From Bacteroidota bacterium (GTDB lineage: Bacteria; Bacteroidota; Bacteroidia; JABDFU01), in NCBI GenBank assembly GCA_016183775.1, contig JACPDY010000064.1, positions 1-39,374 of the forward strand: DNA of 39,374 nucleotides, read 5' to 3'. A program made the position numbers and the translations under genes. Under the pieces are notes generated by a model. It worked only from the letters and a program-made list of their open reading frames with translations. It was not told where the DNA came from and did not search any database. Shown here piece after piece: positions 5,985 to 34,284 of this stretch. How positions within the stretch are numbered: position 1 is the first letter of the stretch; every line of letters starts with the position of its first letter.

Positions 5985-6047
5985 GTTCCGGGTTCGAGGT
6001 TCCGCGTTCAAAGTTAACCCGGAACCTTGAACTTTGAACCTTGAACT
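5985..6047. repeat. Mirror-image heptanucleotide array before purB
   Basis: Exactly nine 7-base units fill 63 bases. The left ones begin GTTC (GTTCCGG, GTTCGAG, GTTCCGC, GTTCAAA), the central one is GTTAACC, and the right ones end in GAAC plus one base (CGGAACC, TTGAACT, TTGAACC, TTGAACT). The two halves are roughly reverse complements around the palindrome GTTAAC, so the transcript could fold into a long imperfect hairpin. The array starts 5 bases after the stop of the UDP-xylose synthase gene and ends 10 bases before the purB ATG. Confidence 0.85.
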
Positions 6048-6057
6048 TTTTCAAAAT

Positions 6058-29091: not shown

Positions 29092-29229
29092 CGTCATTTA
29101 TTCGTCATTCGCAGATGTTACGCTATATAACAGCCGATTATGTTTTTCCGATTTCATCACCGCCAATAAAAAATGGAGTGGTAGTGGTTGAGGATAATGG
29201 CATTATTCAAGATGTTCTTCTTCCTTCCG

Positions 29230-29262
29230 AATCTCAAATCTCAAATCTCAAATCTCAAATCT
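29230..29262 (+). repeat. Heptanucleotide array AATCTCA in the amidohydrolase
   Basis: AATCTCA is repeated four times without change from 29230 to 29257, followed by a partial fifth unit. It is read in frame as SQISNLKSQI, between the beta-sandwich start and the conserved ICPSFINTHCHLE. The identity of the copies points to a recent expansion. Confidence 0.85.
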
Positions 29263-29957
29263 ACCAGGGAATAATTTGCCCGAGCTTTATAAACACACAT
29301 TGTCATCTTGAATTATCCCATCTGAAAGGTGCTATACCTGAAAAAACGGGCATGGCCGGATTCATAAAAAATATTCTTGCCAAACGGCCAGGTTATACAC
29401 GTACCCAGGTGATGGAAGCTATCATACATGCGGAACAGGAAATGGTCAACAACGGAATTGTCGCGGTTGGTGATATTTCGAATGATGAATCAACATTTGA
29501 ACAGAAAAGTAAAAACTATTTAAAGTATCATACTTTTTTTGAAGTGTTTGATTTAAATCCCTCACATGCGCAAGATACATTTGAAGAAGCATTGAAGCTA
29601 CAGGCCAAATTAAGGTCAATGTCTCCTTCCGCTCAATGCTCAATTGTCCCACATGCACCCTACTCGGTTTCCGTAGAGTTGTTTAAATTGATATGTGAGC
29701 ATGCTTCAAAAAATAATTCCATCATAAGTTATCATAACCAGGAAAGCCTTGCGGAGAGTGATTTATTCATAAACAAAAGCGGTGCAATTGCGGAACTATT
29801 TGCCGGAATGAAAATTAACCCCGGCCTTATCCCTGAAACAGGACTTAACTCATTGCGTTCAATGCTCGCAAATTTTTCGCGCACCAATAAAACCCTGTTT
29901 GTTCACAATACCTATACAAGTAAGGATGATATTTTGTGGGCAAACAATTATTTTAAT

Positions 29958-30062
29958 GGGGACGAGGGACAAGGGGAAAAAGAAAAACAGAACCCGGAAC
30001 CTCGAACCCGGAACCTGGAACCTGAAACCCGGAACCCGGAACCCTGAACCCGGAACCCTTTT
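29958..30062 (+). repeat. Fifteen-unit heptanucleotide array within the amidohydrolase frame
   Basis: 105 bases of 7-base units. The first few are purine-rich (GGGACGA, GGGACAA); the later ones are variants of CCGGAAC, such as CTGGAAC, CTCGAAC and CCTGAAC. Fifteen units equal 35 codons, so the host frame is kept. The translation shows a 7-residue rhythm (NPEPRTR, then NLEPETR). One unit, CCTGAAC instead of CCGGAAC, makes the TGA stop. Confidence 0.9.
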
Positions 30063-30428
30063 TGGTGCTTCTGCCCCAACGCGAATCTTTATATTGAAAA
30101 TAAATTACCCGATTACCAGGCATTTGTTGATACAGGGGCGATCTGTACGATTGGAACCGACAGTCTTGCTTCCAATCATTCGCTTTCAGTGCTGGATGAA
30201 TTAAAGGTGATAACAAAACATGCACCACAGATAGGACTGGAAACACTTTTGACCTGGGCTACATTGAACGGGGCTGCATTTCTTGGCTTCGATAAAGAAC
30301 TTGGCAGTATTGAAAAGGGGAAAAAGCCCGGGTTGAATTTAATTTCAAATGTCGATTTGGGGAAGATTCAACTTACTGCTGAAAGCAAAATAAAAAAATT
30401 GGTTTAGTGCGCGAGAAGATTTGCGACT

Positions 30429-33970: not shown

Positions 33971-34048
33971 GTTTGTTAGTTGTTCGTTGTCAGTTGTTTG
34001 TTATCAGCTATGGGTACTTTCAACCGACAACTAACAACTTCTAACTAA
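33971..34048. repeat. Mirror-image heptanucleotide array filling the DUF3098-uppP gap
   Basis: Five units on the left (GTTTGTT, AGTTGTT, CGTTGTC, AGTTGTT, TGTTATC; 33971-34005) and four on the right (CAACCGA, CAACTAA, CAACTTC, TAACTAA; 34021-34048) with a 15-base centre. The halves are near reverse complements. The array touches the stop codon of the DUF3098 gene and ends at the base before the uppP ATG, leaving no other leader sequence. Confidence 0.85.
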
Positions 34049-34284
34049 TCTTCCTTAACCTTTTTCATGATCGCGAACATTACTGTTGCGAAACCGGTGA
34101 GTACAATAATCGGAGCAAGTGTGATCCTGCGGAAGCTGAATATTTCGGGGTTAAATACTTTAGGGTCGTCTGAACCACCGCCGGCCATCAGTAAAAAGCC
34201 AACGACCAAAAGAGCAATTCCTGCCAACATGATCTGGTAATTTAGTTTTCCGAACGCGAATCCTTCTTTTTTTCCTTTGGCCAT
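34045..34284 (-). CDS. DUF3098 membrane protein
   Basis: A 79-residue protein with two membrane helices (about 15-31, IMLAGIALLVVGFLLMAG, and about 54-72, LAPIIVLTGFATVMFAIM) joined by a loop with GGGSDDPKVFNPEIFSFRR. This is the pattern of DUF3098, a small Bacteroidota family encoded beside ftsX. No function is known; a role near the FtsEX division complex is an inference from the repeated gene order. Its N terminus (MAKGKKEGFAFGKLNYQ) is basic and cytoplasmic. Confidence 0.88.
   Translation of the reverse strand: MAKGKKEGFAFGKLNYQIMLAGIALLVVGFLLMAGGGSDDPKVFNPEIFSFRRITLAPIIVLTGFATVMFAIMKKVKED

Follow-up and report, generated by a model that had tools for sequence, protein, structure and literature searches.

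Heptamer tandem repeats that appear to refill orthologous protein loops with changing units in Bacteroidia, with an aminofutalosine-deaminase-like gene carrying an in-frame TGA as one example

In many bacteria the long simple repeats are most often heptanucleotides, and polymerase slippage has been proposed as their source (Mrazek et al. 2007, as related in PMC4679880 and PMC4692102). The arrays described here resemble those prokaryotic repeats, as far as these two accounts convey them, in that tandem 7-base units occur far above chance and period 7 is the commonest; but the coding repeats of that survey, by the same accounts, chiefly have units that are a multiple of three, whereas here 7-base units of varied sequence occupy coding loops in frame, with different units at orthologous sites. 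The TAACTGA direct repeats of Beggiatoaceae, Cyanobacteria and a few Bacteroidetes (PMC4679880) are a further instance of heptamer arrays in some Bacteroidetes, but consist of one fixed unit placed mainly upstream of start codons, whereas ours vary in unit and lie in loops within proteins. The GGGAATC and GGGGA(T/C)T repeats of Xanthomonas and Nostoc (PMC4692102) are likewise dispersed arrays, with inverted pairs and with variation in length and sequence between relatives; unlike ours, they are of a single G-quadruplex-forming unit type and were studied mainly between genes. The heptanucleotide AAGACTC of neuO in E. coli K1 (PMC13001214) shares in-frame translation with our arrays, the frame being kept when units come in threes; that array, however, lies at the 5' end of a gene for a surface-modifying enzyme and has proven phase variation, whereas the arrays here occupy internal loops of housekeeping enzymes. 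PMC4692102 noted in 2015 that detailed literature on heptameric repeats was lacking, and the literature that we searched, which was scant in subscription papers, yielded no description of heptamers recurrently replacing one another in loops of orthologous proteins. Heptamer repeats are already known; it is their recurrent replacement at such loops that is new.

The locus lies in a stretch of 39,374 nucleotides (the window), which is contig JACPDY010000064.1 of the draft genome (G000, 164 contigs) of an uncultured Bacteroidia bacterium. Its features are collected in the table below. The gene start is the ATG indicated by family alignment, within a reading frame that is open already from 29043.

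Table. Features of the deaminase-like gene and its heptamer arrays, in window coordinates
Feature	Position	Strand	Basis
Aminofutalosine-deaminase-like amidohydrolase gene (predicted) with one in-frame TGA; start ATG at 29115	29115..30407	+	Profile and family alignment, closest solved relative 7LKJ/7LKK
Perfect in-frame array AATCTCA x4.7, the first in the gene; occupies loop 1, which separates two N-terminal strands	29230..29262	+	Tandem-repeat scan; loop position from relatives
Degenerate stretch in the same register, with GGGACGA/GGGACAA-like units	29958..29989	+	Sequence; similar array at L042:6421-6453
Second array, of about 10 units of the GGAACCC/GGAACCT type; occupies loop 3 and immediately precedes FWCFCPNANLYIE	29990..30058	+	Tandem-repeat scan
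In-frame TGA from a T-bearing unit (CCCTGAA)	30045..30047	+	ORF translation; T/G frequencies at the unit position
C-terminal part continuing the frame, conserved (CPNANLYIE, GTDSLASN) and subject to purifying selection	30048..30404	+	Alignment, dN/dS against same-genus G002

We assign the gene, from comparison of predicted proteins, to an aminofutalosine-deaminase-like amidohydrolase family of the menaquinone (vitamin K) pathway. The Helicobacter pylori aminofutalosine deaminase (7LKJ/7LKK) is the closest PDB structure by sequence, and the second closest by fold, to the intact enzyme of the same-genus relative G002 (L011). The Helicobacter enzyme is like the Bacteroidia one in fold and pathway context, with about 24% identity over the fold, and the activity of the Bacteroidia enzyme is a predicted one; L011 is not a member of the NCBIfam equivalog PRK08418 (135.9 bits against a cut-off of 320), so the name aminofutalosine deaminase rests on context. 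This context is strong: among 40 genomes (that of the window and 39 relatives), 26 of the 27 with MqnA/D also have the deaminase family, and all 13 without MqnA/D lack it (Fisher 1e-9); the sole MqnA/D genome without the family is a draft of 65% completeness. In the window's genome there are MqnA and MqnD, MqnE (TIGR03700, above cut-off) and a futalosine hydrolase (TIGR03664, above cut-off) that adjoins one of the MqnA/D genes, together with a single copy of the deaminase. Residues H61, H63, H179, H206 and D324 (alignment numbering), which we take to be the metal ligands (HxH, H, H, D) of the amidohydrolase superfamily, are invariant in all 14 rows of the alignment, including the window's.

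The second array is the top-scoring tandem repeat of the window (period 7, about 9.9 units, 83% matches), at about codons 292-315 of 430. In its tandem 7-base units, longer than chance, it matches the heptanucleotide long simple repeats and, lying within an ORF whose frame is maintained across it except for the TGA, the translated coding heptanucleotides. The initial annotation had seen a period-7 array in an amidohydrolase frame here, which is borne out, and had counted 15 units over 105 bases. About ten are clear, but the first 32 bases (beginning GGGGACGAGGGACAAGGGG) keep the register only loosely; a GGGACAA/GGGACGA array also occurs elsewhere in the window's genome, at the L042 site of the table. 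It had further taken all other units to be CCGGAAC, when CCTCGAA, CCTGGAA and CCTGAAA are also present, and had overlooked the gene's other array, the AATCTCA repeat in loop 1. Its derivation of the TGA from a single G-to-T change finds no support, as T-bearing units are as common as G-bearing ones: in the sampled genome, the base preceding GAAC in tandem GAACYYxGAAC is T in 41 cases, G in 31 and C in 5, and the TGA need not therefore be a special mutation. We also considered a mobile element with fixed flanks and rejected it, since only the array itself is matched elsewhere in the window's genome.

Both the array and the TGA are present in the assembly, and beyond the TGA the amidohydrolase frame does resume, as FWCFCPNANLYIENKLPDY, and goes on to encode a stretch that includes VITKHAPQIGLETLLTWATLNGAAFLGFDK. 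The two halves of the gene match consecutive stretches (1-208 and 215-320) of the 345-position Pfam profile Amidohydro_1. Relative to G002, the part 5' of the array has a dN/dS of 0.181 and the part 3' of the TGA one of 0.163; the latter is without decay and is conserved like the former. The portion lost through the TGA contains the invariant aspartate of GTDS, and the first in-frame ATG, GTG or TTG after the TGA is the GTG at 30189, already past CPNANLYIEN, so a two-piece enzyme made by restart is rejected and the TGA should abolish a needed step. It should also be costly, given that the deaminase is single-copy and MqnA/D, MqnE and the futalosine hydrolase are intact. These losses are what a settled pseudogene would show, in a genome that had given up menaquinone synthesis through the futalosine route, yet with no decay 3' of the TGA this is not an old pseudogene, and with the remaining pathway genes intact as well we regard such abandonment as very unlikely.

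The intact and conserved downstream frame could alternatively mean that full-length enzyme is made through recoding of the TGA or through read-through, the latter having been allowed by the initial annotation. Reassignment of TGA is rejected, as it is an ordinary stop in the window's genome, where it terminates 73 of the 246 ORFs of at least 300 aa; and the TGA codon, far from being conserved at a functional site, falls in a non-conserved repeat and is absent from the relatives. Read-through is accordingly the least credible of the readings, and we hold it to be extremely unlikely.

A more substantial objection is that the TGA arose as an error of assembly or consensus, through the merging of short reads from similar heptamer arrays, while the true gene is intact. 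The draft state of the genome, with its many near-identical GAACCC/TGAACCC arrays, speaks for this, as do the single-copy gene in a complete pathway, the purifying selection on both halves and the lack of any other gene-breaking array in the sample. Against it, the array with its unique flanks is short enough for common read lengths to span, and we consider such an error a real possibility that falls short of being the favoured account. It might also be proposed that this is a contingency (phase-variable) locus, in which gain and loss of units toggle the deaminase within a population: heptamers are not multiples of three, and slippage of a coding heptanucleotide is an established switch in neuO (PMC13001214). 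Here, however, the switch would act on a core metabolic enzyme and through an array that is internal and imperfect, and the arrays of relatives are as a rule intact and in frame, all of which makes a switch improbable. The initial view that a recent mutation broke the gene keeps the part that agrees with the undecayed 3' portion and the missing restart, though not its G-to-T event; the TGA allele is probably either a null, of recent origin or polymorphic, that a change in the array might reverse, or an assembly error in the repeat.

The gene is one example of what appears, from comparison of sequences, to be a recurrent process, the refilling of orthologous protein loops by heptamers whose unit changes. 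Among 68 deaminase genes we found 22 period-7 arrays (score at least 10), all of them in three loops at about residues 35-47, 160-176 and 271-294, and at most two arrays at other non-harmonic periods. About 18% of the gene belongs to these loops, and the chance of 22 out of 22 falling within them is about 6e-17 under independence, which does not fully hold. Units in these loops include AAGTCAG, CATCAAC, TCCAACC, AGAAACA, AAGTATC, TCTCAAA and AACTTTG. Loop 1 has AATCTCA in the window and AAGTCAG in the nearest relative, G002, of the same genus; AATCTCA turns up again in L109 (loop 2) and in L084 (loop 3). Carriers of arrays are clustered on the tree, yet the carrier label needs seven changes, at least four of which are forced by well-supported branches.

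Two further families, ValS and MqnD, were chosen because the window's genome carries an array there; the coincidence of site in other genomes is independent of that choice. Nine of their ten arrays lie in one loop per family, with mostly different units. In ValS (30 genes) four of the five arrays are in one loop before QDEDVLDTWFSS, with AATTAAG, AACGTCA, AAGTTCA and CAAACTC in four genomes; two of the genes with different arrays in this shared loop are at L053:16703-16734 and L165:10781-10811. In MqnD all five arrays, from five genomes and mostly of different units, are in one loop before AIPGKYTTAN. The mqnD-like gene (MqnA/MqnD family) of the window's genome has there an AATCTCA array with its frame intact (L204:15124-15158, equivalent to C22:45124-45158), and the same loop is filled by other heptamers in G022, G008, G019 and G033.

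The deaminase loops seem to be places where a protein could accept filler. In an AlphaFold model of the G002 enzyme (pLDDT 93), loop 1 makes a turn that links N-terminal strands; loops 2 and 3 each connect a helix to the next strand. In barrel folds of the amidohydrolase type the alpha-to-beta loops usually lie opposite the active site. By this fold convention, loops 2 and 3 of the modelled deaminase would be away from the catalytic face.

Period-7 repeats are not confined to these genes. A strict scan of 360 kb of the window's genome gave 15 period-7 arrays where a Markov control gave none, and a census of 703 kb gave 65, against one to seven each for periods 4-6 and 8-11; as the second half of the census favoured contigs with GAACCC hits, the resulting array density is an upper estimate. 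The other Bacteroidia G006, G019 and G022 likewise show period 7, and many sampled relatives had no period-7 array within 19-20 kb each. A set of 117 arrays comprises 72 distinct units, which is not the single fixed heptamer of the TAACTGA type. Genome-specific unit dialects are not claimed (p 0.03), the nearest units often being in other genomes.

With genic taken to mean within a long open frame picked by length (not a curated gene call), 38 of the 65 arrays of the window's genome are genic, as are 15 of 16 in G019, several of these in signal peptides. Stop triplets per 7 bp number 0.20 in the sense strand of genic arrays, 0.47 in the antisense strand and 0.39 in intergenic arrays (p 1e-4 for sense versus antisense). 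This depletion is predicted by survival under a frame-and-stop filter and, together with the relatives that hold frame with different heptamers in the same loops, it upholds the selection for frame that the initial annotation had proposed. Its picture of a repeat passing from neutral insertion to gene loss is overstated, as arrays are common in intact genes of the lineage and none in the 703 kb sample, other than the TGA-bearing one of the window, was seen to break a gene. We considered whether other arrays might mark broken genes, and found that where an intergenic array lies between closely spaced ORFs of one strand, the two ORFs encode different proteins. As an explanation of the TGA, one allele that is null, polymorphic or mis-assembled does as well as the gene-loss snapshot.

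The explanation that we think likely combines slippage-type heptamer repeats with selection for frame, for absence of stops and for tolerant loops, a stop-bearing unit having landed in frame at this locus. Period-7 tandem repeats would arise and turn over often in this Bacteroidia lineage, most likely by replication slippage, and genic arrays would survive where the frame is kept, the sense strand avoids stops and the protein tolerates filler, a pattern seen in the three enzyme families compared. In the deaminase, filler would be tolerated in a turn close to the N-terminus and in a pair of alpha-to-beta loops; a unit type that bears a stop and is unremarkable in the window's genome would there have fallen in frame and truncated the only deaminase copy.

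Some observations count against this explanation. Arrays are much denser in the gene than in its flanks (22 in 82 kb of deaminase genes, 3 in 238 kb of flanks) and few are intergenic in G019 (1 of 16), and plain neutral tolerance predicts neither. Nor did gene arrays merely track genome density: 38.6 kb of the carriers' flanks held no array, and simple mutation pressure alone is therefore not claimed. Array units are a non-random draw from genomic 7-mers (gain 33 versus 16 +/- 4), and an inverted partner array lies nearby in 31 of the 117 arrays, against 1 and 9 in two controls. Passive slippage explains the period and the imperfection, but not obviously the gene-versus-flank density, the non-randomness of units or the inverted partners. 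We therefore give a small share of belief to an active heptamer-generating process, with a sequence preference and an inverted-pair tendency of its own, that would refill loops by replacing whole arrays rather than by point mutation. A dedicated process that makes or moves heptamers, and that would target these sites or preferentially refill them, draws on the same vocabulary, inverted partners and gene enrichment, and on the different units of sister species at one site; but arrays of equal unit do not share flanks, no candidate enzyme or template was identified and few units are common to different genomes, and such a process we judge slightly less probable still.

If recurrent heptamer turnover, by slippage or otherwise, were one of the main origins of loop sequence across a large bacterial lineage, it would give proteins a separate way to change, in frame and with 7-residue periodicity, open to any stop-free unit and placed at enzyme sites that accept filler. 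In draft genomes of uncultured Bacteroidia it would account for unusual loops that align poorly and for the occasional in-frame stop, and it would make the long-standing question of the prevalence of period 7 in bacteria testable in culturable carriers.

Heptamer arrays were also observed in other settings. In G019 (L176, L173, L067) several apparent signal peptides have a hydrophobic core made up of such arrays, LLLASGFLLLASGIFAQ being one example. Inverted array pairs capable of forming hairpins lie between genes at 5990-6050 and 33973-34057 of the window and at L212:4436-4493 (an rpoA-rplQ-like gap), and an inverted GGGACGA pair at L042:6421-6528 lies within the open frame of a putative PriA-like helicase ORF, named by eye. 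A family of large repeat-domain proteins (L217, L220, L222, L057, L049, L205) has a recurring heptamer array near the C-terminus (GSGFQVSGLSAGTYTVTVTD), which in L205 and L220 is swapped for another heptamer (TTSQISNLTSQIYTVTVTD).
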